Part shown: in pieces, positions 3,880-43,200 of the stretch | Layout: each line of letters begins with the position of its first letter | Position numbering within the stretch: position 1 is the stretch's first letter | Assembly: GCA_030435675.1 (NCBI GenBank) | Contig: CM059623.1 | Coordinates: 3,684,012 to 3,748,011 of the forward strand | DNA from: Steinernema hermaphroditum | Lineage: Eukaryota > Nematoda > Chromadorea > Rhabditida > Steinernematidae | Length of the DNA: 64,000 nt | Direction: 5' to 3' | The notes under the pieces: model-generated | The model's input: only the letters and a program-made list of their open reading frames with translations | What the model was told of the DNA's origin: nothing | The model's database searches: none | Translations under genes and position numbers: made by a program

Positions 3880-6800
3880 TCAGCACATCGGTTCTCCGTA
3901 GCCCTTCAGCAGTCCCCTGACTGCATCTTCACACATGGGAGACGCCTTCATCTCGGCCATGACCACGACCTCCTCCAGAAGACCCTTCAACTTCGTTACA
4001 TCGAGGGAAACCTTGTCGCTCGTCTTGTTGAGGGTGATCATCTTCTGGACAAGGTCGCAAGTGTCCGAAGCGAAATTTTTCCTTTGAAGGACGACATTCT
4101 TGATTACGGTAGCTACGCTGGTTAGGAGAGGAGTGATATCGAAGGAGTGATCGAATTTATGTCTAAAATTGTGTTTTTGAATGAGGTAAAGAAAATGGTG
4201 ACCTACTCATTGAAGAACACCTGAAGACCGGTTACGGTAGCGTGCTTGACTTTCCAGTAAACTGAGGAATCCTGTAGGATATTGATAATAATGGTCTGTC
4301 CGGGAATGATTTTACTTTCTGAAAGTAGGGAAATGCTATTGGCTTGCAAAGAAAATGTTTGGCAGCCGGCCGGATTCGAACTCGGATCGATCGTTTGATA
4401 GTTACCGATGCTAACCATTGCACCACCAGTCCACACATAACTGGCCCTACGCTGTATTGGCTAGCGCTCTCGACCACCAAACGATCGATCGGGGTTCAAA
4501 CTCCGGTGGAGTAAATTTCGAGTTTTCAACTTTTTTCACCTTTTCTCCATTTTCTGGACTCACCTTCAGGGTAAACAATCAGAAGTCGGGCCAACCACTC
4601 AGCTAAAATGGCCAAGAAGTCTTGTTTGTGGGTGATCTTCTGATGTTTCGTCTCCTCATCATCTGAAGACTCGTCGTCTTCGTCCTTCTTGGCAATCAGC
4701 TCCGAGATGAACTTCTCTATCTTGGCAGCTCCGTCCAAGTAGCCCAGATTCTGACAAAACGCTACGGCGGCTTTGATGGCTTGGGCCTTGTATTGTACGT
4801 TTTTCTTCTGGGTCTCTTTGAAGAGAGGAGCAAATTTCTTAACCAATCATTTGTCATATGTGACCAGTTACCGTAACCCACCTGCTCCAGCTCTTCATTA
4901 GTCCACTTCTTCTTCAGCTGCGTCGAAGTTGTGGAGACCAACGCCTCGACAGCATTCAGAACTGTCTCCTTGCCGTCCCAGATGCGCCCAGGCAGGAATT
5001 CGACGATACTTCCGTAAATTTCGTCCGCGCGGTCGGCACTAAAGCTGCTACCAGCATATTGGAACACTTGGGTTAGCATGGCGGCCGCGTTGGAACGGAC
5101 AACGTAGACAGCGTTGTTCTTCATGAGGTCCAAGGCCAAAGCGATCATCTCTGCAGAATACATGCGGATGGCCGATTCAGTGCCCGGAATCATATCGCTC
5201 CACAGCTCCAGCCAATCCTCGTGCTTCTTCTTTGCCACTGGATCGCCTTTGGGTACTTAAAGAAGTTAAATTACCGTAGTTCTTCGAATCCCAAAGCTGC
5301 TTACCTTTCTCAAAAGTGGTCAAGAAGACGACCGGCAGAAGTTGACCGTTGTAGTCGGTGACGAGTTCGTGGCACTGGTTGACCAGGCCTCTGAGAAGGT
5401 GGTACACCTTTTGACGACTATCCTCTAGAACCGGAAACTAGTAAAGCTCGTACTTTCATCCTTACCTTCAGTAGAAACGAGCGACTCCACAATGAACTTG
5501 ACCACCTTCTTGACCGACCTTTCCGGGCAATATTTCAGGAAATAGGACACCGTAGAGGCGTACTGCTTTCGAAGGGCCGGGTTACTGTTGCTCAGCCCTT
5601 GATAGAGGGCGCGGAAGATCAAGACGTTGGAGTTAGCGCACCTCTCCGAGTTGAGCATGTTGGGAAGACGGAGGCAAATGTTGACAAGCCACTGCGCGGA
5701 TCCGTTGCGGGTGGGCAGACCACAGCTGTGCAGAAGGTTCTGGCTGAGGATCTGCGCGATTTGGTCGTAGTTCTCTTCGTCGATGAAGGGGATGAAGTCG
5801 TTCAGGGACGTCATCATGGGGGAAGTTCGGGCGGCCGAGGAACGGGCGTCGTCGACCTGAAAAAGCGGAAATGATGGAGGAAAAAGTGATGGGAGCTGTG
5901 CCGAGACTACAGTACGCCTTTGTATAGCAGAGTTCGTGTTCATCATAGGACAAACAAGTAAAGAAAAAGGACGTGAAATGAGGAAAGACGAAAGAAAAAT
6001 ATTTGGACTCTGGTAGGATTCGAACCCCCGACCTCCTTCATGATAATCTACAGTCATGGGCCATAGCTTTGGAACAAATGTAGACCTGGGTTGGTCTCTT
6101 CTAAGTCCCTCATTTCGAATCAGACCTTCACAAATAGACTCAAAACGCACTTACAATTTCTCTAGTACCCTCATCGGATCTCAGCGACAGATAGCTAAGC
6201 ACAGAGGGCTCCGTCTCGCTGAGCGACTCGAGGAGACAAGGAACGATCTGCTTCAAGAAGGGCTTCACACTCTTTCCAGCTTCTTTTCCGAGTCTCATGA
6301 CACATCGAAGGCTGAAACATCGATATGAGATCCGGACGATTGCCGTATCCTACCCAAACATTCTCGTGGCTTTGACAGTCGAGTGGATGCCCTTCTCCAC
6401 CAACACGGGCAGCACTGTCCCGATTACGGTATTCGCCGTTGTCGTTCCCTCGGCGCTGTATCTGCAGACGGTCCTCTCGACCTGTTGGAGAGCCTTCAGG
6501 GCGGCAAGACGAGTCGACTCTTTGATGTCGTCTTGGACACGGAAAAGATCGACAAGAAGGTCGCCAAGATCCTCGCACATAGAAGTGACGAAGTGGCCGG
6601 AGAGGAGGTCGGCCAAGGCCAAGCAGCTCGACTCTCTCACGCGCCACTCCTTGTTGGTCAGAGAGGAGCGGATCTCGCTCATGATTTCAGTGGCGTACTC
6701 GTCGGTGACGTTCTTCTGGGTGCCGGTCACCTCCTTCCAGATGGACTTCATCGCCAGTTGGACGTTGACGTCGGGGTCGTAGGTGTAGCGGTAGAGTTTG

Positions 6801-9800
6801 GGAACAAGCGAGGGCAAGTAGGGTTGGAGCTCGTTGCGCGCCACTTCAAAGACTGCGCCGAAGCCGAATGCGGCGCCCTGAATTCAAAGCGAGTGATAAG
6901 AGCTGGCCATGAAGGGGGATAGAGACTAGGAAGAACAACTAGTCACATCGCCATTTTACAGATCAAAAGCTTCTTTACCTTCTTGGAATTCCACGTTTGA
7001 TTATGACTGGCCAAGCTCAAGAACTTGTACACCAAGTCCGGCTGATTCATGTCCGTTGCCAATGCACAAATCTCCTTGTAAGTGCCAATGGCCTCCCCAC
7101 CAGGCGCCTTTCCCAATTGTCCTTTCTCGAAAAGTACCGTATCCTCGGTCAGCTTCACCACTGGCTTTCTTCCGGTGGACAGGGCATCGACCAGCTGTCC
7201 AACGAGCTTCTTCTTCATCTCATCCGAGGCTAGCGAGTATGCAAGGCCAACTCCCTTGCTAGCCACGTCCTGGGCAAACTCTAAAGTGGAAATGATTGAT
7301 ATGCTAAGAGTACGGTAGTCTACCGTTGGATTCAGAGAGTCCGTTGATGAAAGCGGCTTGGATGCTGTCGAGATGCTCGATAACGACCTGGAGACCCATG
7401 TCGGACGAGCGTTTTGTCATGCGGAAGAGCCAGATGAGGGCTGCTTGGCGGAGGTGACGGTTGGTGTGAGTTACTTTTTCAGCGATTATGGTAGTGATGA
7501 TTGCTTTGGCACGAGATTCGAGGAGTTCGTTGGGTGAGGAGAGCTGGAAATCAATGGTTCTTAATATGAAAAATAAATAAAAAAGGAGTAAAGGATAAAA
7601 GAAGAAGAATTGGTTTGGGAGGGATTCGAACCCGCATCGTTCGTTTCATAGTCCCGAGTGCTAATCACTAATCACTATGCTACTCTACTCCGTTAGCTGT
7701 AAGTGGTGGCGGTTCAGTGGTTAGCAGCGCCGATCATTAAACGATCAGCTCGAGTTCGAACCACAGGACCTCAAAAATATTTTCTTTTTGCATTTGTATT
7801 TTTTCACTTTCACTTTTAACTGACTCCAAGAAGTTGGCCACGACCTACCTTCAAGTCACCCGGCGCCGTAAGGAACACATTCCTTCGGGAATCCGAAATC
7901 TCTCCACAGACGCTGTCGAAAAGCGCGTCTCCGACGTTGAACTGCAGCTCAGGCAGTGGAGGACCCTCTCCAGCGTCAAAAAGGCTCTGCACGATCTTCT
8001 CGACTACGGTCACCGCCATCGATTCATGGATGGAGGCGAGGAATCCGAGACAAGCAGCTGCGCTCTCTTTCATCTTCAGAGTGATCGTGTCCTTGCGGGA
8101 GACGAGAGCTTTGGCGAGAAGGTCGATGGCTTCGACATAGTCCTCGGCCGAACGCGACTTTTGGATGTAGAGATGCTAAAGATTTCACTTTGATACCTTT
8201 CCAATCCTGACTTTCTCACCTTCTGCTCGTTTCCCACAGCCGACAGTCTCAGAACTTCGGCCAACGCCGACAGCGCCGTCTCCAGAGACACACTTGGATG
8301 CTCGAGACCGTCCTTGGTCAGCGCGATAAGAGCCTTTTGGACGTCGGCGGCGTATTCAAATGAGATCTCCTGCTCCAGGCTGAGCAACGCCATAATCCAC
8401 ACAGTTCCCGCAACAAAATCTTTGTTCGCTTTAACTTCGGCTACCGTAGTCTGGAACTCATCGACGATCTGGCGCCGCTCGAGAAGAAGGATGAAGGCTT
8501 TGGCAGCGAGATTGCACACGGAGTATCGATTGGAGGATTTGGTTACTGTGCGGAGTTTGTCGCGACAGGCCGAAACCAGCCATTGGTTGGGAGTGCCCTG
8601 GGAGCAGGAGAGCACGAAGATGCAGATGTGGAGAAGAGCACTTCCTAAAATCGGGTGTATGAAACACATTGCCCAGAAAACGAAAAAAAAAATGAAAATT
8701 AAGCTCTTGCTGGGGGTCGAACCCGTGACCTCCTGGCTGATATACATGATGTATGGCGCAAAACTTACCAGTGTTGGTAGACTCCCATACCGACGTCAGC
8801 ACAATCTCCACAAACTTCTGCACCGTTTCGGGTCTTGACCCCTTCAAGAAGATCGCTACCTTCGGCAGCTCTTCGACTTTGAGATCGTCGTCCAGGAATC
8901 CGAAGAATTTTCCCGAGCACTTTGCCAAGGAGGCCGCCACGGCCAGAATGTAGGTCGAAGCGATCTGGTGAGTCTTTTCAGTGAGCTTCGACTTCCGAAC
9001 GTCCTTTTTGCTCTTCTCGGCCGCTTCCAGAGCGTCGGTCACGTTTTCGATCTTGAGGTTCTTGTGGAAAAGGTCCACCAGTTCGTCCAAGTCGGGAAGA
9101 GACTCTTGGTCGGAGAGGGAGAGCTGCAGGAGACGAGCCGCTTCTTTCTCGAGGTCGTGTCGCCTAAAATTATTTTTTGAAATTTTGGCCATAGAGGAGG
9201 TTTTCGGTTTTCGATTAAACATCTGGGTGGTGGGCAATGAGCCGCTTAGATTTTGAATCGGATCGGATTCACCCTTCTCAATTGGATTACGGTATCTCAC
9301 CTTGAGTTTAAGCAGTGGACGAGGAGCCACCGGAAGACAGGACTCTTTGACTTGATCAAAGCGGCGATATACTTTAAGGCCACAAGAGAGCACTTGTCAA
9401 TCTTCTGAAATAAGATATTTCTTTAGTATGCTCTCTATAAGCTTAAAAGAGGAATATTTCGTTACGTACCACGAACTGAGCAACTACGGTCTCGAGCATG
9501 TTGATAACAGCGGGGTCCTTGATGGCAGCAAACGAAGGCAGCCACTCAACGAGACAATCTTGGATCGCCCCGATGACCTCCTCCGGTGCCGTCGTGATCG
9601 CTTCGAAAGTGTCATTCAAAAGAGCGAGGTTGGAAGTCACCAAGTTGGGCAGTTTTCTGCCCAAAATACCGTAGGAACGGTAGAGAATGGCAACTACGTT
9701 CCCGAACTGAAATATTCTTCTAGGTGGACCATTTTGAGTGGATGAGATACCTCGCACTCGTGGAAGAGTTTCGTGATCTGCTTGAAGATGATGGGACCGA

Positions 9801-11861
9801 AGTTGGGCAGGAAATTGGGAGGCATATTCTCGACGATGGACTGTAGGAACTGCGCCCCAAGGATCTGGACTTTCACCGGGCGAAGGTCCTTTTGATCGTT
9901 TTGAAGGGCGCCGAATGCGACCTAGAAAAGGAGGTACGAGGATGACATGAGGCCTGAATACCTTGTAATTCCCCGGGAATGTAGTAGCAGCCTTTTTCGA
10001 TCTGTTAAGATATGGCAAAATGGCCATCTTCATAGGGATATCCGACACTCCGATCTTCTCGCGAACGTTGGTCGCCTGATTTCCGGTGTACCATAGGAAC
10101 AAGTAGTTCACAATGGTGGCATCGTTGATGCACTCATCGATGTTGACCTTTCTCAACTGCAGATCGGCCAGATCTTTCACTTTGTCCACGTAGTTCGACT
10201 TTCCGAGGATGTAGATCGGGAATGACTCCTTTTCTGTGTAAACATCTTTAGCGAGGAAATTGAGGGTTCCCATTTTGAGCTGGAAGAATTCGATTTTGAT
10301 CCGGGGCCATTGGACGTGAACTCACCTCGGTCATGTTGGTTTTGATCACCACAAGTCGAAGGATGATGTCCGAATAGACGCCGAGGGCTATGCCACTCTC
10401 CCTCCCGGGGATGATTCCCTCGGTCACCAGGTGAGCACGTCTTTGACAGTCTTCAAAGTGTGTGTACTGGAAGGCCGTCATATCTCTGAGAAGCTGAAGG
10501 ATTATGGGCTTCACGGAAACGTCTCTGAAGAGATCCATGATGTCGGAAGGCCAGGACTCGATTCTCATGAAGCCGAGAAGTGAGATTCCTCTGATGATTA
10601 TGAATGTTAGCCTGAAAGTTGAGATTAGGTATACGGATCTGATCAAAAAACGCTGGTTTCCATCGGGACTCGCTGTCAAGAGACATTAGGAGACACAGTA
10701 AAAATACTAAAAACGTATTAAATGCAAAAACAAAAAATTTTGACGGCAGAGGATTCGAAACCGCATCGATCGTTTCATAATCAGCAATGGTAACCACTAC
10801 ACCACTCGACAGAATTCGGCCATCGTCTGGTGCAGTGGTTAGCACTCTTGATCGGCAAACGATATATGCGGGTTCAATCCCTACTTTCGACTTTCTTTTT
10901 CTAGCTTCATCAATTTTTTTCATCAAAACTTACTCATAGGCAGTGTTCTTTGACCCGTCCTCTACCTTTTTCTTCAGCAACTTCAACAGCTCTGGCATAT
11001 ACTTGACCATCTCAGCGTCGTTCATCCTATCGATGCCCATCTTAAAGAACCGAAGGGTAAGCCCAAGCGGTACAGGATGGGTCTGTTTCTTGAGATATTC
11101 CATGTAGATGTCAACATTGATCTTGACCAATTCGTCGTTTTTGATTCGTCTACTTAAATGTGCGAGTATCTCTTTGCCCTTGTCGAGGATTTTCTGATTG
11201 TTCGTCGCGAGGAGATCCATTACAGTGAAAATGGTCTTGTCGAGGAACGTTTGCATTTTCTCTTCATTATCGATCGAGGCCAGCTTCAGGAAGAGACGTT
11301 CCACTGAAACGATTTAGAAGCTATAAAATACAAGATTTTTTTCTAAATTTGTGTCTGAAGACATGTAAATAATCTATAGGTAAAATTCAATGAAAACAAT
11401 GGAAAAAAATCTGCTCCGCGCCGGCTTTGAACCAGAGACCTCCAGTGTGATAATAATTATTTTTCACCAAAATGCTATTATGATATTATCACACTGGGGG
11501 TCCGGGGTTCGAAGCCGGTCTTAGGCAAACTTTTTCGTTTTTTTCTTCCTCTATCTCCTAAACGTCTTTATTCAATTTTTTCTTCATAATTCCACTGGAA
11601 AAGGGACCGATAATTTGGCGTTAGGAGAGGTCCAGCTTTCGTGTTGTACATTGGAATAAATCATGTCTATGACTATGTCTACTGAGCCTCTCAATGGGCA
11701 GCAACACCCAATTACCAAGCCGAGAGGACCTAGAACCCAGATTTTCAAGCGCATTTGGCCTAAAGCCTTCATGCCATAAAATAACTAATGCACTTTGTGA
11801 ACATGGGAACGAACAAAGAATCGAACTTACAGGCATCTTCAACACCCAAATTTGCAGCCAT
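3880..11861 (-). CDS. ECPAS: ECM29-like proteasome adaptor and scaffold protein
   Basis: Hand-built model of 20 exons: 11831-11861, 10934-11303, 10326-10611, 9962-10279, 9751-9921, 9470-9706, 9301-9404, 8769-9163, 8220-8644, 7849-8175, 7324-7543, 6979-7280, 6354-6877, 6155-6311, 5466-5856, 5275-5424, 4882-5237, 4564-4837, 4207-4318 and 3880-4162. Phase is kept throughout and gives about 1,810 aa, close to the ~1,850 aa of animal ECM29. The N-terminus (VERLFLKLAS) and the serial HEAT-type helices throughout match this family. ECM29 binds the 26S proteasome, stabilises or inspects the core-regulatory particle junction and tethers it to other compartments; C. elegans has orthologs. The start lies 256 bp from the divergent SDR gene, so a shared promoter is likely. 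Eleven introns are 37-65 nt. Eight are longer than 100 nt, and six of those contain tRNA-like sequence. Confidence 0.9.
4361..4512. repeat. Head-to-head tRNA-like pair (ECM29 intron 18)
   Basis: The left half (4361-4435) read on the minus strand has an A-box-like GGTGCAATGGTTAGCAT and a B-box GAGTTCGAATCC. The right half (4441-4510) read on the plus strand has TGTATTGGCTAGCG and GGGTTCAAACTCC. Both share AAACGATCGATC at the anticodon-arm position. Acceptor stems do not pair, so these are not working tRNAs. T-runs follow each half outward. Confidence 0.75.
6008..6060 (-). repeat. tRNA-like 3' half (ECM29 intron 14)
   Basis: On the minus strand an AGGAGGTC variable-loop-like segment runs into GGGGGTTCGAATCC, a strong B box. 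No convincing A box or acceptor stem is seen. It resembles the single elements at 8701-8757 and 40640-40700. Confidence 0.5.
7617..7768. repeat. Head-to-head tRNA-like pair (ECM29 intron 10)
   Basis: The left half is on the minus strand, with B box GGGTTCGAATCCC and a GATTAGCA A-box remnant. The right half is on the plus strand, with GGTTCAGTGGTTAGCAG and GAGTTCGAACC. AAACGATC or its variant is present in both. T-rich tracts follow both outward ends. Confidence 0.75.
8701..8757 (-). repeat. tRNA-like 3' half (ECM29 intron 8)
   Basis: On the minus strand: CAGGAGGTCACGGGTTCGAC, with the B box at its end, followed by a pyrimidine/T-rich tract. Same layout as 6008-6060. It fills most of a 124-nt intron. 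Confidence 0.5.
10747..10883. repeat. Head-to-head tRNA-like pair (ECM29 intron 2)
   Basis: The left half on the minus strand has GTAGTGGTTACCA and GGTTTCGAATCC. The right half on the plus strand has GGTGCAGTGGTTAGCAC, GGCAAACGAT and GGGTTCAATCCC. The two A boxes face each other across ~25 nt. Confidence 0.75.
11414..11522. repeat. Foldback repeat with B-box-like ends (ECM29 intron 1)
   Basis: CCGGCTTTGAACCAGAGACC at the left pairs imperfectly with GGGGTCCGGGGTTCGAAGCC at the right. An inner palindrome (TGTGATAATA / TATTATCACA) lies around an A/T-rich centre. It occupies part of a 527-nt intron. Confidence 0.6.
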
Positions 11862-12116
11862 CTTGTCGATATCCTTAAGAGCAGTTCAATACCACAAGAT
11901 TCAGAATCCTGAAAATTCGGTTAAGCATCATCGTTTCCTATTTATACATCTGTCATTTCGAAAGCGACGCCTTAGAACCGTCCAAAGCATGACAATTCGA
12001 ACGTTAGAATTTTCCAGTCCCCACCAGATCGGGGCGAGATCACTGCACTCCACTTCCGCGACACTCCCTTATAAGAGCGCAAGATAAAACCACGAATTCA
12101 CATGTGAGTTGCGGCA
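11862..12116. promoter_or_regulatory. Shared promoter of ECM29 and the SDR gene
   Basis: These 255 bp separate two divergent start codons. A TATA-like CTTATAAGAG lies ~45 bp before the plus-strand ATG. No other recognised sites. Confidence 0.4.
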
Positions 12117-14388: not shown

Positions 14389-14427
14389 ATATCTATCTCC
14401 ACTTATAGTATGGCAATGAATAAGTAC

Positions 14428-15655: not shown

Positions 15656-15779
15656 AAAGGTGCATGTCTCTAAAGGTCAAACATGTCATGTCATTACATG
15701 TGTTCTGTTTCAATATGTACTGTGTGCTGAAAGATTTTTATCCAATATTACAAAATGCCGCTTTCTGCTTCGTATAGGA

Positions 15780-17229: not shown

Positions 17230-17609
17230 ATTTTGAAACGGACTCTCCTATTTCGAACAAACGAGAAAATCGCGCTTTCCCGCACTTTTTTATGTGGTGC
17301 AACGGTCGCGCCGGGACCCAGATGTGAGCGATGATGCTGATGCACTTCTAGTGACAGCCCCTTGGAGGTGTCATTGGAGGTGTCATGAAGCTTATGAAGT
17401 ATAATAAAATGAACATAAGCTAAGCTACCGTACACCTTGACAAGCACCTCACATGTTTCAGAATAATCGCCAGCCTGCACTGGAGAACAATGAAGTTCGC
17501 GCAAAAAGAAGGAACTGCTGCAGCTGAGAATGCACAAACAAAGAGAAGAATTAATAAAAACACTCATACATTTACACACAATGTCTATAAACACGCTAAA
17601 CATCCGAAC

Positions 17610-22470: not shown

Positions 22471-22570
22471 AAGAAGCACGAAGACGTTGATATGACCAGA
22501 AGTGAATGAAATTTTTTGATGTTAAATGTTACTTAATAGTAAAGTGTAATTGGAGGAACATCTCTCTGTA

Positions 22571-22924: not shown

Positions 22925-22976
22925 GATGTTCAACAATCGTTTGTTTTCGCATGGTTTATTATGCGCGATAGGGCAT

Positions 22977-28246: not shown

Positions 28247-30151
28247 ATGAACGGTCGTCTCGCTCTGATTCTTCTCGTCGTCGTCGGTAGGACCAAAAAA
28301 GTCTTTTTGTCTCCGAGTAACGATCGCTTTTAGGCAGCGCACTGTCCGCTTCCCTGAACAAGGGCTCCACCGGATTCAACCGCAAGCGATGGCTGATCCG
28401 TGGCCGCCCGTGGCACGGCCTCGTTCCTCCGCCGGCTAAGGCCGACAACGTCGACGCCCCCGATCAGTGGTTCACCCAGCCCGTGGACAACTTCGATGCC
28501 TCGAACACCCAGACCTGGCAGCAGCGCTTCTGGTCCAACGACCAGTGGTACACGGAGGGAGGCCCGATCTTCCTCATGCTCGGCGGAGAGGGTCCCGAAA
28601 GCAACGGATGGGTCGTTCGCGACGACCTCGAGTGGACCACCCTCGCACGGAAGTTCGGCGCCATGGTGTATCTCATCGAGCACCGCTTCTACGGACAGAG
28701 TCTTCCCTTCCAAAGTGCCGAGACCTCTAACTTGAAGTACCTGTCCTCGCGCCAGGCCCTCGCCGACATGGCCAACTTCATCAAGGCGCAGAATAAGAAC
28801 AACGGCTACAACAACCCCAAGTGGATCGTATTCGGAGGATCCTACTCTGGAGCCTTGGCTGCCTGGGCCCGTGAGCAGTACCCCGAACTTGTCTATGGTT
28901 CTTTGGCCAGCTCCGCCCCCGTTCAAGCCGAAGTCGATTTCTACCGTAAGTGTTTCAGAAAGGATTAAAAATGTTTTGATGCAGACCGGGAACGAACCCG
29001 GGTCGATTATTTACTGGTCGCACGTGCTAACCATTGCACTATTTGGACATATGTCTAATGCAATTTTAGCCGAATGGCTCAGTGGTTTACATCACAGATT
29101 AGTAAACGATCGACGGGAGTTCGAAACCTAGAAGAAGATCTTATTTTCTAAATTTTTTTTTCGTCAAATAAACATTTCTTATGAGCTAATTTCTAGAGTA
29201 CCTCGAAGTCGTCGAGTTCGCCTTCAGCCAGACGGACAAGAAGTGCGCCGACAACATCCACCAGGGCTTCGTGCAGCTCCAGAAGCTCGCCAAGACCTCC
29301 TCCGGCCGCGAAACCCTAAAGAACCTCATGAACATCTGCGAGGACATCGACCCTCACAACACCGATAACCTCCACAACTTCTGGCAGTCCATGATCGGAA
29401 ACTACATGGGCGTCGTCCAGTACGGAGGCGACAACAGCGGAAACTACCGTACCGAAGTCACCCCTCAGGCCATCTGCGCTATGGTCAACGACGAGAGCAG
29501 CGATATCCTTCAGCGCATGGGCAACGTGAACGCCTGGTTCATGGAGATGTACGAAGAGTCGTGTGTCGACATCGACTACCAGAACTACCTCGACTACATG
29601 AAGCAGTCGACCGACGCTGGTTAGATCTATCAATAGCCTATAGTCTATTGAATGTCTTGCATTTAAGATCGTATGTGGATCTGGCAGACGTGCACCGAAT
29701 TCGGTTACTACCAGTCCAGCGACTCTAAGACCGCCGGACCCTTCTTCGGCGACAACACCAAGAGCTCCATGCCCATTGAGTAAGCCCTGCTCTGACCCAT
29801 CATCATCCCTAAACATCGTCCCTTTCCAGCTGGATCGTTAGGGAGTGCGCTCAGATCTTTGGCGACGACTACAAGAGCCAGGCCGTCTACGACGCTATCA
29901 AGAAGACGAACAACTTCTACGGCGGCGCCAACAAGTTCAACGCCACCCGAGTCATCTTCCCCAACGGCAACCACGACCCGTGGCACGCGCTCGGCGAGCT
30001 GACCAGCCCCAACGCCCAGTCGCCGGCTATCATCATCGCCGGAACCGCGCACTGCGCCGACATGTACCCTCTGGCCGACGACGATCTTCCCAGCCTGAAG
30101 GCCGCGCGCAAGTCCATCTCCGCGCACATGGCTCAATGGATCATGCACTAA
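28247..30151 (+). CDS. Secreted S28 family serine carboxypeptidase, copy 1
   Basis: Exons 28247-28286, 28334-28945, 29197-29619, 29668-29779 and 29830-30151 give 502 aa. A signal peptide (MNGRLALILLVVVGSALSA) is followed by the peptidase S28 fold: QPVDNFD, GEGPES, the nucleophile serine in GGSYSGALAAW, the acid in NGNHDPW and the histidine in GTAHCADM. All three catalytic residues are present. The closest relatives are the thymus-specific-serine-protease/lysosomal Pro-X carboxypeptidase group (K12H4.7-like in worms), which cut after proline in lysosomes or gut lumen. It is a tandem duplicate of 31295-33180 with the same intron positions; intron 2 in both carries a tRNA-like pair. Confidence 0.93.
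28983..29130. repeat. Head-to-head tRNA-like pair (S28 copy 1, intron 2)
   Basis: The left half on the minus strand has GTGCAATGGTTAGCACG and CGGGTTCGTTCCCGG. The right half on the plus strand has GCCGAATGGCTCAGTGG and GGGAGTTCGAAACC with AAACGATCGAC. T-runs follow. The same pair sits at 32030-32170 in the paralog. Confidence 0.8.
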
Positions 30152-31294
30152 AAGTTCGGGTCGTGCGTAGTAGATGTACTATAGCGAAATAAAGACGGTG
30201 ATAAGAGACTGTTTGCAGGCGATCGTTAAACCATAGAAGTACCCTTTTATCAATTCTGTTCAAATTCTTGCTGATAGAGAGGAGGTCCGATCCAAAGAAC
30301 AAATCATAAAAAATTAATTAAAAAGTGATGACGTAGCGAAGATTATTGATCAAATTGTCTGAGCACACTTCAATTTGAAAATGAGTCCTTTACAAGCAAG
30401 TCAAGCACACGGATCAACATACCATATCCTTCCCAGTTCAATAACTTCTCTGAATATCTCCAAAATTGACCAACCTAGCCTTTATGCAATAGTGACAAGA
30501 TCAGTTTTCAGGGCTTGACTTGAAGAAAAATAAAATGGCACCAGTTCGCAAAGCAGAAAAACCAAGAAAAAAGAAGTTTCGGTCGCTAGGATTCGAACCC
30601 GCACAGATCGTTTATTGGTCTCCAATGCTAACCATTGTACCACCCAAACTGTTCAATGACGACAATTTGGCGCCGTGGAGCAATGGATAGCATTCTTGCT
30701 TGCCAAACAACCTATTGGGGTTCGAGTCCTGGAGGAGTTGTCGTATGCGTTTTTTTACATATACGATGTTTTTAAACGGACAGTTTTTGACATGCAGTTT
30801 GACAAACCCGCTATGCTGTACGGTTCCGAAACGTGGGCGTTAACGACGACAGTAATAATGATCGCGCTTTTTTTTTCTTTTTTTGAGCTAACCTTTCTTA
30901 GTGATGATGAAATATTACATCAGCAGTAACTTTGCAAGCAATTTTTCATCTCTACTTTATGTCCGTCGGTCACCCTCTTTTACACTTTTTGAAGAACGAT
31001 CGAGTCTTATGTAAATTCAGCAGAATATCACATAAAAAATACCAATCAGTTAAACTTCGTATAATTGTAGATGGGGGTGCATTTGGAGATGAAAAAAGAC
31101 GGACCCAGAGATGGTAACCCGATCACTGACCTGTTCGAGAACATTGTTCACCTGAAATCCTCGTTAATTCCTTCCTTATCGTCGTTACATTCTGATAGCC
31201 TGCTTCAAGCTCCACTCGTGACTACAACCTTATCGCCGTTGCAAAATGTAGCCATAAAAGAAAGCCCGACCGATGGCGCCAGAGGCATTCGACC
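30152..31294. other. Intergenic between S28 copies
   Basis: AATAAAG at ~30187 is a likely poly(A) signal of copy 1. A tRNA-like pair lies at 30585-30735. The last ~100 bp are the promoter of copy 2. No exon is recognised in the rest. Confidence 0.5.
30585..30735. repeat. Head-to-head tRNA-like pair (intergenic)
   Basis: The left half on the minus strand has GGTACAATGGTTAGCATT and GGGTTCGAATCC. The right half on the plus strand has CGTGGAGCAATGGATAGCAT, CCAAACAACC and GGGGTTCGAGTCC. This is the only short pair in the window that is clearly outside an intron. Confidence 0.75.
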
Positions 31295-33180
31295 ATGAAC
31301 GGCCGTCTTGCGTTGCTCACTCTCTTCCTTATCGGTAGGACACAAATCCGCGCTTCTCGACCGGTCACCCCTCTTTAGGAAGTGTACTCTCCGCTTCCCT
31401 GAACAAGGGAACCACCGGATTCAACCGTAAACGATGGCTTCTTCATGGTCGTCCGTGGCACGGCCTTGTTCCTCCCCCAGCTGCCGCTGTCCAGGATGAT
31501 CAGTTCCCCGATCAGTGGTTCACTCAGCCCGTGGACAACTTTGACTCCAGCAATAAGCAGACCTACAATCAGCGCTATTGGTCCAACAACCAGTGGTACA
31601 AAGAGGGAGGCCCGATCTTCCTCATGCTGGGAGGAGAGGGTCCCGAAGACAATTCATGGGTCAGCTTCGAGCCGCTCGAGTGGCTCCAGCTTGCTAAGAA
31701 GCACAACGCCATGGTGTTCCTCATCGAGCACCGCTACTATGGAGAAAGTCTGCCTTTCCAAGAGCAGACCGCTGACACCCTGAAATACCTGTCCTCGCGC
31801 CAGGCCCTCGCCGACATGGCCAACTTCATCAAGGCGCAGAATAAGAAGAACGGCTACAACAACCCCAAGTGGGTCATCTTCGGAGGATCTTACTCTGGAG
31901 CCTTGGCCGCCTGGGCTCGCGAAAAGTACCCTGATCTCGTCTACGCCGCTTTGGCCACTTCTGCTCCTGTCCAAGCCGAAGTCGACTTCTACCGTAAGTG
32001 TTTCAAACAGCGTTAAAAATGTTTTGATGCGGACCGGGTTCGAACCCGACTCGATTATTTACTAGTCGCATATGCTAACCATTACACTATCTTACATACA
32101 ATTACGCCGGTATGGCTCAGTGGTTTGCATCACAGATTAGTAAACGATCGATGGGAGTTCGAAACCTATAGGATGATCTTATTTTCTAATTTTTTTTTCG
32201 TCAAATAAACGTTTCTTATGAACTAATTTCTAGAGTACCTCGAAGTCGTCGAGTTCGCGTTCAGCCAGACGGACCAGAAATGCGCCGACAACATCCACCA
32301 GGGCTTCGTGCAGCTCCAGAAGCTCGCCAAGACCTCCTCCGGCCGCGAAACCCTTAAGAACATCATGAACATCTGCGAGGACATCGACCCCAGCAACTCC
32401 GACAACGTTCGCCTCTTCTGGCAGGCCATGATCGGAAACTACATGGGCGTTGTCCAGTACGGAGGCGACAACGCTGGTGCATACCAGACCCAAGTCACCC
32501 CGAAGGTCGTCTGCAATGCGGTCAACGACGAGGACTATGACATTCTCACCCGCATGGCTAACGTCAACACCTTCTTCATGCAGATGAACCAGGAGTCCTG
32601 CGTGGATATCGACTACAACAACATGATTCAGTACATGACCGATCCCAATGCTGGTATGAGCAATGAAGAGATCCAGAAGGTTATCATCGATGTCTTCAGA
32701 TAAGGCCTGGTTCTGGCAGACCTGCACCGAATTCGGGTACTACCAGTCGACGGACTCCAAGACCGCCGGACCCTTCTTCGGCGACAACACCAAGAGTTCC
32801 ATGCCCATTGAGTAAGCCCTGTCCTGACCCATCATCGTCCCTAAACATCGTACCTTTCCAGCTGGCTAGTGAAGGAGTGCGGACAGGTCTTCGGCAACAA
32901 CTACATGAGCTCCGAAGTCTACAGCGCCATCAAGTCCACGAACGACTTCTACGGCGCAGCCGGTGACTTCAAGGGCACCCGCGTCATCTTTCCCAACGGC
33001 AACCACGACCCGTGGCACACACTCAGCGTCCTCAAGGACCCCAACCCTTCTTCGTATGCCATCGTAATCAACGGAACCGCGCACTGCGCCGATATGTATC
33101 CAGCCAGCAAAGAAGATCTTCCCGGACTTACGGCCGCTCGCAAGAGAATCCACGAGATCTTCGCTACGTGGTTCCCTTAA
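31295..33180 (+). CDS. Secreted S28 family serine carboxypeptidase, copy 2
   Basis: Exons 31295-31334, 31379-31993, 32234-32653, 32700-32811 and 32862-33180 give 501 aa. Signal peptide MNGRLALLTLFLIGSVLSA, catalytic serine in GGSYSGALAAW, aspartate in NGNHDPW, histidine in GTAHCADM. The 46-nt third intron (32654-32699) is open in frame, so without splicing the frame would stop at TAA; splicing restores FWQTCTEFGYYQ as in copy 1. Exon 2 and the start of exon 3 are very similar to copy 1 at DNA level, while the C-terminal third has diverged. The role is as for copy 1. Confidence 0.93.
32030..32170. repeat. Head-to-head tRNA-like pair (S28 copy 2, intron 2)
   Basis: Same position and layout as 28983-29130, with small changes. 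The right half has GGTATGGCTCAGTGGTTTGC, AAACGATCGATGG and GGAGTTCGAAACC. The pair was present before the gene duplicated. Confidence 0.8.
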
Positions 33181-35998: not shown

Positions 35999-36830
35999 TA
36001 AAATGTGCTGTGGCTATATAGTTTACATTTGCGGTGAGAGTAGACTGCTGAAGTCATTCGAGTGGCTACGGATCGCTCGCTCTCATGAATCGTTCTGGAT
36101 TAGCTGATGTAAGTGACTTTTCGCTTTCGTTCAATGCTTAATCTGCTCTCTAAATTTCAGGCACATGTTGCTCAATAACCAAGAGATCTTCCCGCTCCTG
36201 GTTCGTGCTTGTTTTGTGCCGTTCAGTCCTGCCGATTCGGGATAGCTGTCGAAATTCCTGGGCTACCAGCACTGATGGATTTGGCATCCATATTCGATCA
36301 GCTGTTTAGATCTTCAACAGTATCTAATCCGGTTCCTCACCTGATGTATTTGGCCATCAGAAGACCTCAAAATTTTGCGTCATTCCCTCCAATCCACACG
36401 ATTCTCGTTCCACTCAGCGGACGATGTCTCGTACGTATCTCGTCAAAAATGTGTCACTCGAGGCCACTGACGCCTAATTGCCCGCTTCTCGGCTTGATGA
36501 CATCTCGAGATGGCAACATCGTCGCGCCACGACATTCGAATCCGCATCGATCCCTTTATAAATAGTAGTCGGCCCGCGGACACTTGACAAATAGCGTTGC
36601 TGAGAGGCGTATTAGGCGTGCGCCGACAGCGGTGACGGCACGCATACCTTCCCCGGGGGTGATGCCAAGATTTAATTGATTGGCGCGCCGAGGCGACTTC
36701 GTCGACGGCGCCGTCCCCAGGGCCTCCACGGCCACACACACGTTTGTCCCACGTACGCCGTGGGAAGTCGCGCGCCGAAACGTCGTCGTCGTCCCACGAC
36801 TGTTTATTGCCGAACGGAGGATTAGCAGCG
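35999..36830. other. Intergenic; CG-rich promoter at right
   Basis: AATAAA at ~35998 likely ends the upstream gene. From ~36590 to 36830 the DNA is rich in CG and GGCGCGCC-type sites, probably the promoter of the methyltransferase gene. No exon is recognised. Confidence 0.4.
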
Positions 36831-39800
36831 ATGGATTTGGAGAACGAGTACGTGCACGACGTCTACCGGCGTCTGGCGGCGCACTGCTCCAATGGCGCCG
36901 TCGGCGGCGACTCGCACAGTAGCCGCGCCAACCCGAAGATGTGGCCGAATGTGCGAAAGTTCATGGAGCGTCTGCCTAAGGGGTCTGTCGTGCTGGACGT
37001 CGGCTGCGGACATGCCAAGTACAGTCCACAGGAGGGATTTGTCGTTGGATTCGACATGTGCGCCGACGTGCTCTGCCAGTGCGCCAAGAAGCCCCACTTC
37101 GATGGCATCCTCGCCGATGCCTTGAGGATCCCCGTTAGGTGAGTGACTCTTTAAAGTGATCTTTTAAAACGGCGTTCACATTGAACGTGATAAGAGCGTT
37201 CATAATAGACTGAAGGGAGTGAAAATGAAATGAACCCAGATACCGTATACCAGGTGATGGAAATTGACCGAAAAATGGCATATCTCGGCTATAAGAGACA
37301 CCTCTCACTTCATGTTGTTTTTGTGACCATTTGTGCACATGCCTGACTACTTCCATAAGTGGAAACGTTGCTATTTTCGTCAAAAGCACTTATATGCTTC
37401 AATTTTCTGTACTTTAACGCCACTTCAATCGGATAAGGGATTGGATTGCGTGACTAGAAGAACAAACAAGAAGCCGCAGAAAAATGGTCGCTTGAAATTT
37501 GTATTATGGTCGCCGAGCATCGCTCTCTAAGCCAGAGAACAATCTTATTTGTTTACTGCCGATTCACACTTAATTATTGCTATAATTACGGTAACGATGT
37601 ATTTGTGTCGTTCTCGCTGCTGCCGGGTGGGTTTAATCAAAAGGCCATTGTTTATGCACGTTACGTCACTCTGGCGCGCCGCAAATCGAATTACTCAAAG
37701 TAGCTCTGTCGTCAACAAACGAAGGGGGGTGAGGCTGGGAAAATGAGTGGGAACGTGAGAAAGGAAGGTGCAGTTTTCTCATGTTCCATTGGGGGACACA
37801 AACTTGGTCGGAAAACATAAAAAACATGTAGTTTACAAGTACTGAGGTCCTTTTAGGATTTGTAAACATGCTGCTCATGATGTGTAGAAAATTCTACTTG
37901 GTCATGTCAGATTTGTTTATACAGAGTAGTCCAGAAAAGGGCATTTTCTGTGTTGTGGGTGTCTGTTCAAAGCGCGACAACTGCTTTTGATACTCTGTGA
38001 AGTTGAATTAAGATGAAGGGATGGTGCAGGGATTCGAACCGGCAGCCTCCGGCGAACATGGTAGGCAGATGCGATACCCTGTGCCATGTTGACAGATGCT
38101 TCAGTGGCGCCGTACTCGTATATGCCTCGGTCTCCTTAACTTTTAACTTCTTTTTTTTTCAATCGTGTTTGAGCGAAGGAACCTAGTATTTTGCAGATTT
38201 TGCTCATTAGCCTAGCTAGGCCTACCGTCTGCCCCTGGTCTCGCGTCGATTTTAGCGTTACATGGTTGACCGTGACCGGAATTACTGAAATCGAAACCAA
38301 AACATCGGGCCCGGGCTCCCGACCACACTGCCTAGGACCAGTGTGCCTGACACGGTGGAGCCGAGACCAGGGTTCTCTCCCCTCACGGAAGGCAATCAAC
38401 GGTGTAGACCCATTGCCCGGGGGGTCACACACCGAGGAAGACAATACGTTGATAAGTTACGTTGATATAAGTACGTACTCGCGATTGAAATCGCGAGGTT
38501 GCACGGCTAGACGAATCGACACCGGCAGCTGCACGACACCGAAGCGCCGGCGCCACCAGTCACCATGCGGCGTAGTGTTATACCAGGCTGAAATTCAACA
38601 GTGCGTTTGCATCGGCGCGAAGAGGGTCAGACGAACAGAGAAAATCTTCCAATACGAGGTATTTTCCTCTGTGGTTCTTTCTTTTAGTTGGCCTTAATTT
38701 ACAGTCCGTCGTGTTTTTGACCTCAGTTTGAAAATTGGATACCCTGCGTAAGAGACTAGACAGCAATAGCCGCAGACAGGTCATTTCTGTTTTTCTTACG
38801 CTCGGTTGGCTGCTAGAATGGCTGTCGACTGAAAGGTCGCCACCCGGAATACACTCTGGCCAAAATAGCTTCGCAGAGATCCAAAACAATCTCTTGTCAC
38901 TTCCATTCCAGAAAAAGAGTGGCTGACCGAGGGCACCTAGTATTTTGCCCGTTGAATACAGTCACCATTTTCCCCGCGTCGATCTTATCGTTACATGTTT
39001 GACCCTCCCCTCGTTAGAGCCTTTAATGACCTCTCCACTTTTTTTTCTGCAATAATTTGAAGTTCACTCACAATTTGAGGATTTATACGTACAATGATAC
39101 TAGGCAAATTAGGGTTACTGCAGGGTTGATCGCTGGGTTTAAAAATCAGCGTAATAGTGACCGGAGCAGTCAAATCCTATCAGTTCAGGTCGTCGTCTGT
39201 AGACGCAGCATTGTGCGTATCCGTCCTGCACCACCTCTCCTCAGTCGACCGCCGGAAAGCGGCCATTGAGGAGATCGCGCGATGTCTCCGGCCAAGGGCC
39301 CAAGTCATGTTCTACGTGTGGGCGTTCGAGCAACCAAATGGCCAATTTTCCGGGCAGGACCTTCTTGTGCCGTGGTATCTCCATGAGCTATCGAAAAATG
39401 GTGAGTTCGTCTTGAATTGTATTGCAAAGAGAAATGAATATTGCCTGTACTCTGAACCTTGATCCTAATCCCCATTCAGGGAAGCCCCCGCTTGTCCGTT
39501 TCCACAAGGATTCCACCAGAGAGCAACGGATTATCAGCGTAAGCCTTTGGCCATAGATCCCCGGAAAGCCTCCGCTTTCAGAACTCTATCCCGGTCAAAG
39601 TGAACAATGGACGAGCTGACGGCTCCTTTTCACCTCTTAATACCGTATCCCTCTGGATCGATAACGTCTTCTCGAAGCTGTGGAGTCCTCAAAAGCAGGC
39701 TCCAAAGCCTCCGCCTCCAGCCGTGCCCACCTACATCAAGAAGCTCCAAAGAACGGAGACAATCGTGTCGGGAATCCGACAGTTCAGTCCGGCCCTGAGT

Positions 39801-40082
39801 AGACGACTGGCTTCGCTGTTCTGCTCGGTGGAGGAGCAGCTGGCGACCGAGCTGAGCGAAAAGATAGTCAACGAGGCGGTCACTGAGGCGCTGAGCACAC
39901 TGCAAGAGGTCACCTTCTACCGATACTACCATGTGTTCCGGAAGGGCGAACTGGAACAACTCATATCGGCCGTGCCGAACCTACGAATCATCAGTTCAAA
40001 CTACGATAACGCCAACTGGTGCGTTGTGACCGAGAAAATCCCGAGCTCGTTCACGCCAGTGCCGTGCAAGATTAGAATTTAG
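36831..40082 (+). CDS. TRM9/ALKBH8-type tRNA wobble-uridine methyltransferase
   Basis: Exons 36831-37138, 39189-39400, 39480-39538 and 39582-40082 give 359 aa. SAM-binding motif I is VVLDVGCGHAKY, followed by GFD, LADALRIPVR and SVLHHLSSVDRR, as in Trm9. FSGQDLLVPWYL and the end RYYHVFRKGELEQL...NWCVVTEKI are signatures of the ALKBH8/TRMT9 methyltransferase domain. These enzymes, with TRM112, methylate 5-carboxymethyluridine at position 34 of tRNAs. There is no RRM or AlkB domain, so it is the stand-alone (Trm9/TRMT9B) form. Upstream in-frame codons to 36744 exist, but the family N-terminus fits ATG 36831. Intron 1 is 2,050 nt and holds a copy of the structured repeat. Confidence 0.9.
38020..38110 (-). 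repeat. Degenerate tRNA-like element (methyltransferase intron 1)
   Basis: On the minus strand ATGGCACAGGGTATCGCATC is followed by GCCTACCATG and CCGGTTCGAATCCC. The boxes are tRNA-like but the acceptor arms do not pair. It resembles 45690-45772 in the TGCC-ACCATG part. Confidence 0.45.
38285..38650 (-). repeat. Dispersed structured repeat, copy B
   Basis: Inverted relative to copies A and C. Its equivalent hairpin is CTCGCGATT/AATCGCGAG (38478-38497). The CACACTG/CAGTGTG hairpin and the GCCCGGGCCCGA end are kept. To its left (38185-38275) lies a piece similar to the centre of the palindrome at 14428-15655 (shared CCTAGCTAGGCCTACCGT-type block). Confidence 0.8.
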
Positions 40083-40229
40083 AAAATACCCATTATGTTG
40101 TGTTATATGTAATGTGTCATTGTATCACAAATAAAATAATTATTCCACGAAACTCTTCTTACATTTATCACCGTATAAAATCTTTTGAATCGAAAATTTA
40201 CAAAGTTGAAAGAAGAGAGCAGAAAGAGA

Positions 40230-43200
40230 TCAGTTGTGCGACGTGGGGGCGACGAGGTCGAAAGTGAGGATCGGACGCCGGGGACGGTCGAGGAGAAGGT
40301 CGTCGAGAATGTTGTTCCATGGTAACGTCACGTAGGTAAGATATGCATTCAGCAACGTCGTTTCCACCCGCTTTTTCTGATTTAGCCAGCCGAAGGCCTG
40401 GCCAAAAGATTTGCCAACTCCCCACATGCTGCTGGCCGAGCGTTGGTCTAAAGAAGAGGACTTTTTAGGGCGATAAATAAGGAGGGAAACGGTGGAACTG
40501 GGTAAGAACTTGTTTTCTGAAAACTGGACTCCTTTGAGCTTCGGCTCCTTAGGAGGGGATAAGATTACTTTGCCTATTAAAAATCAACCAGGGAAACATA
40601 TTTCGAAATGTTTCGTCAAGAAAGCACATAAAGAAAAAAGTTTTTCTGTGGGCGGATTCGAACCCCGGACCTTCTAGCTGATACCAGGTCGTTCCAATTT
40701 CGAACCGGGTAGATGCCACCATAATTTTCACCTTTAGATCAGTTCTTATTTTAGAATTTCGTCTCAAAACATGAGTTTAAAATCCTGGCAGTCTACAGTA
40801 CAATGATGAACATCGGTCTAATGGACTTTCTATATTTTTGCAAAGTTTAATGGCAGCGCTGATGACTCTCAATCACATTGATTGACGTTATTTAAAAAGC
40901 CATGAAAAAGAAAAAAATCTGAAAAAGAAAAGAAATTTGGAAAAAAATTATTCTTCACGTTTTGGGTTTCGAACCTCCACTGATCATCTCCTTGTCTGCG
41001 CGCTTATCCGCTATACCATTACACCCTTGTGGTGCAGTGGCTAGCGTCGTTGATTTACGGGCGACAGGTCCGCGTTCGTTCCGTCCCAAATCCACTCTTT
41101 TTTGTTTCCTTTTTCCATGAATTCTGCTCACATTTCTCTATTTTCTTGTCAACACTTCTCTCTCTAATTAACCCCACATCAATCAAAAACTCACTTACCC
41201 TCAATCGAGTTCCCCTCGACTTCTCCGTATTGATTCACAGAGTCGGCATCGCTCTGCCAGCGACGATTCCGTGGCGCACAGCCCAACGAAGGACCAGGAG
41301 TGATCGCCGTCCTTTTATACATCGGCTGATTGACGAGGTTCGTATCGGACGAGCGTCGGAATCCGAAGGGACCGGCCTAAATAGGCTAGTCTCACTATGT
41401 CCATGCCCAAAAGAATCACATACGGAATTGAGATCCTCAAACTCCATGGAATGTTCCACCAACGGAGTGTCCATTCCAGTGTTCAGCACACGCATAACAG
41501 CCATCTCGGCGTATCCCTTCCCGTGTGGTCCCCTCATCCGCACGAATTCCTGTCGGCGTTGGCCATTGTTCATCAGCTTTTGGGCCCAGTGCCATGTGTT
41601 AGAAGCCTGGAAGACATCGAATTGTATGGCTTTGCACAGCCCGCCACTTACTCTTGCATCGTACACCTGCTTGAGCACCTCGTATCTAATGGACCCTAAG
41701 AAAATGACGGCCTCCGTTTGACGATAACGATCTCGTGCAACCACCTCGACGCATACGCATTCGCCGTCTTGAACAATCATGTCATTAAAGATCTATGCAA
41801 ATTACATGGTTACAATCAATGGACGGCAATCAAGCATCGCCTACTTGTTCGAAATTGTCGATGGCGAAATATATTTTCGGAAACGTGATGACCTCACATT
41901 CGCCTTTGCTGTCCATTCGTCGACGACTCGGAGACGGATAGACCTTCTGAATGGGCAACAGGAGGATAGCCGAACAGCTCAAGTGGGCTAACCTGACAGT
42001 TTTTCCTCAATATTTGCAAGTTCTGCGGACTGGTTTTCGTGCAAACCGCACAGGTTACATAGAAGTCGAGCTGCTGGAGGATGATGTTCAAACAGACCGT
42101 TTCCTCCCAGTTCACTTTTGTGTCGCCGACCGTAGGATGGTTCTTGCTCGTTCTTCGATAGACCTGCAGCTGGCTGACCGGCTGAGACGTTCCGCTGTTG
42201 CCGACGTAGAAGTTCGGATTGATTTTCATGTTCGGCACGTACCACAGCATGTCGTCCGAATGGGCTGTGCAGTCCGTTGAGCTGCAATGGGAACTGCCGG
42301 CGATGTAGTCGGTGAAGATGCGACACCACTGCGGTTCTTGGTTCTGCACGATGTTGTATTCGCCATCTGAATGGTGAACGGTCAGTCGCCGACAATGCGA
42401 ATGGTGAGCAACAGTAAGCCCTGAGCGGGCTCGAACAAGCATCGATCGATTGTTGATCGGCTATGCTAACCGGTGCACCATAGATGCATTCACATGTAAA
42501 CAGGCAGATGGTCTGTTTTGATTCAAGCATAACCCTGTTTTGACTTTTTAGAAAAAAGGCATTATGCGGAGGTAAATCGGTCATCCTGTCCTAAGATGTA
42601 ATGTAACCAAGTCTAGTCGCAAGATTGTGCTTTTCGGAACTGATCACCTACAGTATTCCTCCACCTCTCTTGGCCGAATTTGAAAGATTGCCTCATGACA
42701 GCCTCCAAGCGTTTCTTCTGGCACTGGTCATGCCGATTCACTATTTTATTTTTTTTTTTGATTCAGTTTTATGCAAAATTGTGTATATTTATATACTTAT
42801 ATTTCTAAAACATACAAGATAAACAACACAAAAAAGGACTCGACGTTTGAACTGGAACCGGGCTCGAACCTAGATCGATCGTTTACCAGTTCTGCATGCT
42901 AACCACTGTACTATAGGAGCAGGCGAAACTCTCTCTGTAAAGATTCCTTCCGACATAGTGTAGTGGCTAGCATTGAAGATTATAGCATGGTCAACTCGAG
43001 TTCGAATCCCAACATGAGCTTATTTTTTTAATCGTTTTCTTTTTTTTTCGATTTTTGGAAAATATTTTTATGCGATAATTTGCAGTGTATGGAACATTCT
43101 GTAAATTATGTATAAAGTAGGGATGCAGGAATCAGTCAGAAGGTCCGGGGTTCGGATCCACCCGGAGGCAAAACTTTTTCTTCGTACTTTTTCCTTATGT

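Follow-up and report, generated by a model that had tools for sequence, protein, structure and literature searches.

In this study we asked what the short elements are that recur in a 64,000-nucleotide stretch of the Steinernema hermaphroditum genome (the window), each of which looks like two tRNA genes placed back to back, and how they come to lie in the introns of ordinary genes. The original prediction described eight such elements as one family with A boxes facing inward and B boxes outward, and proposed that they might be twin SINEs, foldback elements with outward Pol III promoters, or insertions that either generate introns or are tolerated in them.

Layout and anatomy of the pairs

All eight elements follow the predicted plan, the left unit being on the minus strand and the right one on the plus strand, and at all eight positions the A boxes face inward and the B boxes outward. 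Pair e1 (4358..4517; minus unit 4358-4440, plus unit 4435-4517) lies in the predicted intron 4319-4563 of ECM29, a gene identity with Pfam support in two of the three open frames tried. Pairs e2 (7608..7777; units 7608-7690 and 7695-7777) and e3 (10737..10895; units 10737-10819 and 10813-10895) lie in predicted introns 7544-7848 and 10612-10933, and e4 (28974..29142; units 28974-29056 and 29060-29142) in predicted intron 28946-29196 of a Peptidase_S28 gene. The predicted intron 31994-32233 of a duplicate peptidase gene holds e6 (32022..32180; units 32022-32104 and 32098-32180), which is the same insertion as e4, with a gap of 9 between its units against 19 in e4. The remaining pairs are e5 (30575..30743; units 30575-30657 and 30661-30743), e7 (40951..41097; units about 40956-41028 and 41018-41094), the most diverged of the eight, and e8 (42846..43023; units 42846-42928 and 42941-43023). 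A single family unit is found on the minus strand at 42416..42492.

With R1, a one-unit model built from the 16 units of the eight pairs and the single unit, the 16 reach 38-65 bits and the single unit, which has no match to its right, reaches 53, the next-best match in the window being at 15.7 bits; this scoring is circular, since the model was built from window units. An independent test is given by 49 other loci chosen by their match to one unit or part of one. A minus-plus pair is present in 45 of them (44 without locus L051), while L053 and L085 hold a single unit only and in L049 and L050 no unit was found. The paired arrangement extends beyond the eight elements first listed, and the proposal of one family with one head-to-head plan is supported. 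The 137 matches kept comprise 63 head-to-head pairs and leave 11 units without a partner; neighbours in plus-minus order within 150 nt of each other occur only in L051, which is probably a non-family pair, although it is still included in the counts of 63 pairs and 112 units. The left unit of L051 resembles a true tRNA gene. The 137 matches exclude L039 (the same place as L002, 2 rows), three matches below 11 bits, one of 5.1 bits and window matches below 16 bits; matches in L002-L033 were left out of one listing, with L002 and L003 entering via another. Single weak matches in L014, L015 and L013 (7-21 bits) are among those left out.

The units keep their A and B boxes, a AAACGATCGAT-like word and a stop made of a T-run, and their leader and acceptor positions are near random. 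The word expected at the anticodon-arm position is present as exact AAACGATC in 8 of the 16 window units and as variants in the other eight. Stem, T-run and box analyses used 112 units, those members of the 63 pairs whose ungapped score exceeds 40. The T-runs predicted beyond the outer ends are clearly there: T4 occurs in 77% of units in columns 74-94 and 81% in columns 84-104, compared with A4 in 30% and 5% and a T4 background of 12-15% in columns 164-280 (the plus-strand tail of e1 at 4510..4560, beyond its plus unit, is an example). The stops of 30 tRNA loci from this genome are placed alike, with T4 in 97% in columns 74-94. Because local tRNA genes carry similar tails, the tail of a unit can be regarded as an ordinary Pol III end, and we rejected it as a special feature. 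T-runs number 1.73 per tail in the tRNA genes and 2.54 in the units, and a rhythm of about 10 nt, measured on units alone, was reached in 0 of 2000 random shifts. Consensus match is 0.80 at box positions and 0.44 at others, a difference that is uninformative as the boxes were picked for being conserved; what does inform is the missing correlation between box and non-box match (-0.04). Together the boxes and stops form predicted Pol III-type signals facing outward. A generic B-box scan of 39 loci of chromosome C3 gave 37 head-to-head and 15 'tail-to-tail' arrangements (5 and 1 in the window), counts that we do not use because the B box reads nearly alike on both strands, so that one pair can give both (as at 7623/7762 in the window).

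The gap between units is 10, 19 or 28 nt, give or take one, in 44 of 50 well-aligned pairs (L051 left out), a preference with P ~1e-11 against an even spread of 9-30, for values picked after seeing the data. When poorly aligned pairs are included the count is 50 of 63. The 12 poorly aligned pairs have gaps of -7, -3, 6, 7, 12, 17, 19, 19, 20, 28, 28 and 28. The sequence of the gap is near random although its length is kept. We considered whether the gap classes represent lineages, which is unsupported, as units of classes 28 and 19 resemble those of the other class as closely as those of their own.

Host introns and chromosomal distribution

Our rough gene finder places five of the eight window pairs (e1-e4 and e6) in introns rather than the seven originally proposed: e5 is between genes, e7 falls mostly in a predicted exon, which is doubtful, and e8 is non-genic. 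Over the larger set the pairs are enriched in introns: 32 of 63 are in predicted introns, which make up 23% of non-coding bases at the same loci, by a gene finder shown to be wrong at one peptidase paralogue. The contrast drawn between short ECM29 introns that lack the element and long ones that carry it is largely built in, because the element exceeds 130 bp.

The peptidase genes provide the search for sites without the element with an answer at one host intron. Six paralogues have an intron at the place of e4 and e6 from which the element is absent, five of these introns being about 41-46 nt long and one about 226 nt. The last (in L119) is 52 nt according to the gene finder, which is wrong; exon matches give about 226 nt, without a unit. 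Exon matches likewise suggest about 45 nt, not 33, in L123. With six element-free introns at this place, the e4/e6 copy entered an existing intron. The suggestion of tolerated insertion is supported here, and that of intron generation is not.

The family is concentrated in one arm of C3. With three seed patterns, C3:0.75-4.06 Mb (3.7% of the genome) holds 60 of 65, 34 of 40 and 20 of 26 matches, the limits of this block being drawn from the matches themselves, and no match was found in 80 kb sampled from C1, C2, C4 and C5. For C3, the family thus forms chromosome-specific repeats near one end, as in meiotic pairing-centre arrays, with a few copies elsewhere. The few copies on other chromosomes imply that the family can move. 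One of them, on C2 (L048), resembles a C3 copy (L035) across its two arms and some of the gap, with similarity ending a few nt beyond the B boxes. A second tRNA-bearing repeat, with a nearly identical right edge, is concentrated in the same C3 arm, and part of the clustering may therefore belong to the arm itself. Besides this family, the genome contains at least two inverted-repeat elements that carry tRNA-like sequence, arranged tail to tail. The C3-arm concentration, the preferred spacings and the presence of about half of the copies outside predicted introns were all absent from the original prediction.

Possible explanations for the family

We give an even chance to the explanation that the pairs are an old inverted-repeat family, derived from tRNA, whose copies are kept as paired TFIIIC/Pol III sites similar to extra-TFIIIC sites. 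In its favour are the head-to-head plan, the conservation of boxes and word beside near-random leaders, stops placed as in tRNA genes, the preferred spacing, the lack of stem and arm co-change, the concentration on C3 and the C. elegans precedent. Each copy has two Pol III-type units back to back; TFIIIC may bind both side by side, and transcription by Pol III may run from the middle towards both ends. What is kept would be the docking site and not an RNA product, and most likely it would serve as one of a cluster of TFIIIC-bound chromatin sites of extra-TFIIIC type. Introns may tolerate the element since a non-coding insertion with T-rich outer ends would do little harm in either orientation. 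Competition for upstream factors would be expected between two divergent units at this distance, which counts against this explanation, as do the second repeat clustered in the same arm and the copies on other chromosomes. A more specific version, which we consider unlikely, is a chromosome-specific address in which side-by-side TFIIIC complexes at set spacings, dozens along one arm, would serve chromosome organisation or meiotic homologue pairing, other chromosomes being marked by other sequences.

A less probable alternative is that the pairs are a neutral, ancient inverted-repeat mobile family of a foldback SINE or MITE-like type, whose spread was for the most part local, within the C3 arm, and in which the boxes would seem kept only since the copying sources needed them. 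The L035/L048 likeness with its end near the B boxes, the element-free paralogue introns and the tail-to-tail elements elsewhere would all fit such a family. So would the duplicates supported by their flanks, which give no proof of selection: 18 of 178 box positions changed compared with 69 of 424 others (P = 0.057), and e4 and e6 changed by 7.4% in the intron flanks and 8.9% in the boxes, so that ongoing selection is unproved. Counts of 48/315 versus 94/266 came from rows chosen by similarity and were set aside in favour of these duplicates. Harder to reconcile with neutrality are a spacing kept across a near-random gap, in classes that are not lineages, and the lack of R1 matches between 15.7 and 38 bits in the window, with the caveat that the model was built there. 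By eye, no target duplication was recognised in five alignments, which also speaks against such a family, and no SINE body or LINE-like or simple-repeat tail was recognised. A recent twin SINE is unlikely, since most copies have diverged too far to be grouped and target duplication was not recognised.

That the pairs are arrayed genes for small Pol III RNAs, with functional products of about 85-95 nt, seems to us quite improbable. Promoter boxes and T-run stops are indeed placed as in tRNA genes, but the product is near random outside the boxes and has neither a conserved fold nor co-changing stems. Ten unit RNAs fold like their shuffles (z -1.7 to +1.5), pairing of stems other than the acceptor is at the shuffled level, and no co-change was found in the T or anticodon stem among the 112 units. 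The claim that acceptor stems do not pair stands as far as pairing is near the shuffled level (45.0% versus 42.4%), and needs softening in that a trace may be present at most (z 1.9, as high in 35 of 1000 shuffles). Such a slight excess is expected of decaying tRNA copies and counts against the paired-site explanation. That the units are not working tRNAs agrees with the lack of clear cloverleaf pairing and of tRNA calls; in the window, ARAGORN found no tRNA and Rfam had no match at the gathering threshold. On these blanks and the lack of clear stem co-change we rejected functional tRNA genes.

A hairpin acting in the pre-mRNA, through splicing, editing or as a source of small RNA, is very improbable. 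All eight window pairs are capable of forming a long, imperfect hairpin (-39 to -61 kcal/mol), but over 51 pairs the two arms of a pair resemble each other no more (0.521) than arms of different pairs do (0.526), the same pairs show no arm-to-arm co-change or greater complementarity even with G-U allowed, and roughly half of the copies fall outside predicted introns. Given this equal likeness, a selected hairpin is not supported. An element that creates its own intron is hardly credible: some predicted introns (lengths 204-264) are little beyond element and splice sites, but at the one host position with a comparison all six peptidase paralogues keep the intron without it.

Comparison with known systems

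Like MITEs and foldback elements, the pairs are short inverted repeats with element-free sites and copies on several chromosomes. Unlike them, they have no target duplication or transposase-type ends recognisable by eye, and their arms share promoter boxes and match their own partner no better than other arms. The Twin SINEs of Culex also have two tRNA-related parts, but in the same direction, whereas those here are head to head. With tRNA-derived SINEs, of which the tRNA-RTE class is reported to make up 432 of 588 SINEs in S. carpocapsae (PMC5120318), the pairs share a tRNA origin, A and B boxes and a dispersed, non-coding nature. They differ from the single head of such SINEs in being inverted pairs, in having no recognised body or LINE-like tail, and in that related copies cease to resemble each other a few nt beyond the B boxes.

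The closest resemblance may be to extra-TFIIIC sites, which are known in yeasts, flies, mammals and C. elegans, where their role is open (PMC6950938). According to that paper, the C. elegans sites have both box A and box B yet are not tRNA genes, many are CeRep3 repeats, and they form dense clusters, over-represented in introns and in one arm per autosome, reportedly the pairing-centre arm. The pairs described here likewise have an A and a B box at tRNA-like spacing and no functional tRNA, are clustered in a chromosome arm and are over-represented in introns, placing paired, predicted Pol III-type promoters within ordinary genes. Hi-C and ChIP data are reported for S. hermaphroditum (PMC12629237), and with a family that marks one arm of one chromosome in a fixed head-to-head plan, at preferred spacings, the role of worm extra-TFIIIC sites would become testable in this species. 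In contrast to the C. elegans sites, which are described on all autosomes, the family is mostly restricted to one arm of one chromosome; its head-to-head pairing and preferred spacing, compared by description, are not mentioned for the C. elegans sites in the passages of PMC6950938 compared.

The paired arrangement and its distribution

The pair family is real and well-defined. At all eight places in the window a minus-strand unit lies to the left of a plus-strand unit, in keeping with the two-unit, head-to-head plan of the original prediction. R1, a sequence-only model of one unit built from 17 units, scores the 16 paired units and one single in the window at 38-65 bits, with the next match at 15.7 bits; these scores are circular, as the same units were used for model building. 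An independent test on 49 loci outside the window, chosen for having a unit match, gave a minus-plus pair in 45, a single unit in 2 and nothing in 2. The 137 kept matches comprise 63 pairs versus 11 unpaired units. Among these matches a same-direction unit lies no more than 150 nt from a pair in five cases, and plus-minus neighbours within 150 nt occur once, at locus L051 on C2. Here a tRNA-like gene, its acceptor ends judged by eye to be paired, is joined to another unit, and L051 is probably not a true family pair.

The assembly comprises 90.65 Mb in 60 contigs, and the five contigs examined (C1 to C5) measure 16.7-18.4 Mb each. The window covers C3:3684012-3748011. By locus positions, 57 of the 63 pairs fall within C3:0.75-4.06 Mb, from where most loci had been picked. 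Pattern searches point to the same block: TGGTTAGCANNNNNGAYNNNNAAACGATCGAT with up to 3 mismatches was found at 65 places, 60 of them in the block (reversed control 2); TGGTTAGCAN{24,30}GTTCGA, which leaves out the conserved anticodon-arm word, at 40 places, 34 in the block (control 0); and TGGATAGCAN{24,30}GTTCGA at 26 places, 20 in the block (control 0). The block represents 3.7% of the genome, its limits being drawn around the pattern matches themselves. The density peaks at C3 3.25-4.0 Mb, around the window, and part of this peak may be ascertainment, the window having supplied the consensus. A small sample of 80 kb from C1, C2, C4 and C5 contained no family unit by the model, and two weak part-matches in locus L086 belong to another tRNA-like repeat. 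A search with the word masked recovered 7 of the 8 window pairs and found no pair in 92 kb around 30 tRNA genes, again a small sample. Other paired families may exist elsewhere in the genome.

The repeat AGAAGGTCCGGGGTTCGAATCC occurs at 275 places genome-wide, with window copies at 43149 and 40664. Among the 100 exact matches listed, 33 of the 35 C3 copies lie at 0.26-4.06 Mb and 35 of the 40 C1 copies below 2.8 Mb, and the right edge on C3 is nearly identical to that of the pair family. This arm of C3 is thus repeat-rich in general; what distinguishes the pair family is that few copies are found in other arms. Many of the AGAAGGTCCGGGGTTCGAATCC matches listed form inverted pairs, tail to tail, about 150-170 bp apart.

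Several other tRNA-like sequences were observed. A second inverted-repeat element has 34 places genome-wide, of which one is in L086 and four were read (L106-L109). Each of its arms contains a tRNA-like sequence of type II; the arms are mostly about 347 bp apart and the middle part is oppositely oriented among copies. Single B-box half units with GGAGGTC ahead of the B box, at 6026 and 8723 of the window within ECM29, are possibly related to the type-II repeat. At 11433-11515 a 60-bp near-palindrome lies between two outward B boxes, with T-runs outside and no recognised A box, and two tRNA-like sequences that resemble each other, at 48701 and 49335, each with a T-run ahead of the B box, stand in opposite orientation about 630 bp apart. 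On C1, C2, C4 and C5, tRNA genes that are almost identical to one another (anticodon read by eye as TTT) turn up repeatedly close to the chromosome ends, for example at C2:0.8-1.6, C4:0.8-1.25 and C5:14.9-15.5 Mb; they are among 63 scored matches, 30 of which were read.

Unit anatomy, spacing and selection

Common to 112 units are TGGTnnAGTGGTTAGCAT, GAYTRnnAAACGATCGAT and GGTTCGAATCC; the two near-random positions occupy the place of anticodon bases 35 and 36, and near-random sequence also makes up the leader and acceptor columns. The expectation of unpaired acceptor stems mostly holds, yet these columns pair at 45.0% versus 42.4% when shuffled, a level reached in 35 of 1000 shuffles. T-stem columns (59.5% versus 61.3% shuffled) show no excess and anticodon-stem columns pair at the shuffled level. 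The expected T-runs are present beyond both ends, starting at about the termination point of a tRNA gene: T4 is found in 77% of units at columns 74-94 and 81% at columns 84-104, versus 12-15% far out, with A4 at 30% and 5% in the same columns. tRNA genes of the same genome have similar tails. The T-runs also show a rhythm of about 10 nt (0 of 2000 random shifts), on which we build no conclusion.

The gap, counted between position 1 of each unit, deviates by at most one nt from 10, 19 or 28 in 44 of 50 well-aligned pairs and in 50 of 63 overall; its step of about 9 falls short of a full helical turn. These preferred gaps could reflect old lineages. However, gap sequence is near random, units of classes 28 and 19 are as alike between classes (0.526) as within them (0.532 and 0.530), and the duplicate window pairs differ in gap, e4 having 19 and e6 having 9, which argues for a kept geometry instead. 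A selected foldback or hairpin is not supported: each of the eight window pairs can fold back because the same boxes are present in both arms, and across 51 pairs the arms agree no more within a pair (0.521) than between different pairs (0.526).

For selection we count that boxes, stop and spacing are kept amid near-random sequence, that the window has no R1 match between 15.7 and 38 bits, and that box and non-box identity are uncorrelated. Against it, flank-supported duplicates changed at 18 of 178 box positions versus 69 of 424 others (P = 0.057), and the e4/e6 flanks are no more changed than the boxes.

Introns and mobility

Residence in introns was borne out as a bias only. Predicted introns hold just 32 of the 63 pairs; 30 are non-genic (22 of these in segments touching a locus end) and one lies in a doubtful exon. 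The intronic share of non-coding bases outside elements at the same loci is 23%, giving a bias of about twofold that rests on a rough tool, a hidden Markov model for gene finding with this sequence as its training set. The suggestion that the elements generate introns is not supported for e4 and e6, whose host introns, 251 and 240 nt long, belong to Peptidase_S28 genes. At six paralogous places an intron interrupts the gene at the same residue. Its length is about 41-46 nt in five of them and about 226 nt in the sixth (C3:13.75 Mb), and none of the six introns contains a family unit. The e4/e6 copy therefore entered an existing intron. In the ~226-nt intron (L119, C3:13752200-13752750) a repetitive GGGACGG/CAAAG stretch stands in the pair's stead.

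Between loci L035 (C3) and L048 (C2) the likeness covers the two arms together with a part of the gap and stops a few nt past the B boxes; L045 and L076 also resemble each other, with the order flipped. As judged from such sequence comparisons, the pair family has moved in the genome. Most copies are too diverged for grouping.

Relation to known elements

Among the literature matches listed, no title or abstract opening concerned head-to-head tRNA-like pairs in nematodes, the subscription literature being mostly uncovered; the family is apparently undescribed, in that no description was found in the literature covered. In S. carpocapsae, 432 tRNA-RTE SINEs are annotated, according to the available text of PMC5120318. 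The mechanism proposed for the pair family is plausible and testable. For C. elegans, the available text of PMC6950938 describes that Pol III is absent from about half of the TFIIIC sites; these Pol III-free sites have box A and box B, overlap repeats in 44.6% (of which CeRep3 95.1%) and are over-represented in introns and in one arm per autosome, the arm harbouring the pairing centre. For the C. elegans sites this text does not mention the pairing, the spacing or the restriction to a single chromosome that characterise the pair family. In sequence, place and intron bias, as far as the same text describes them, the pair family resembles the C. elegans extra-TFIIIC sites, and the extra-TFIIIC site is its closest known kind.
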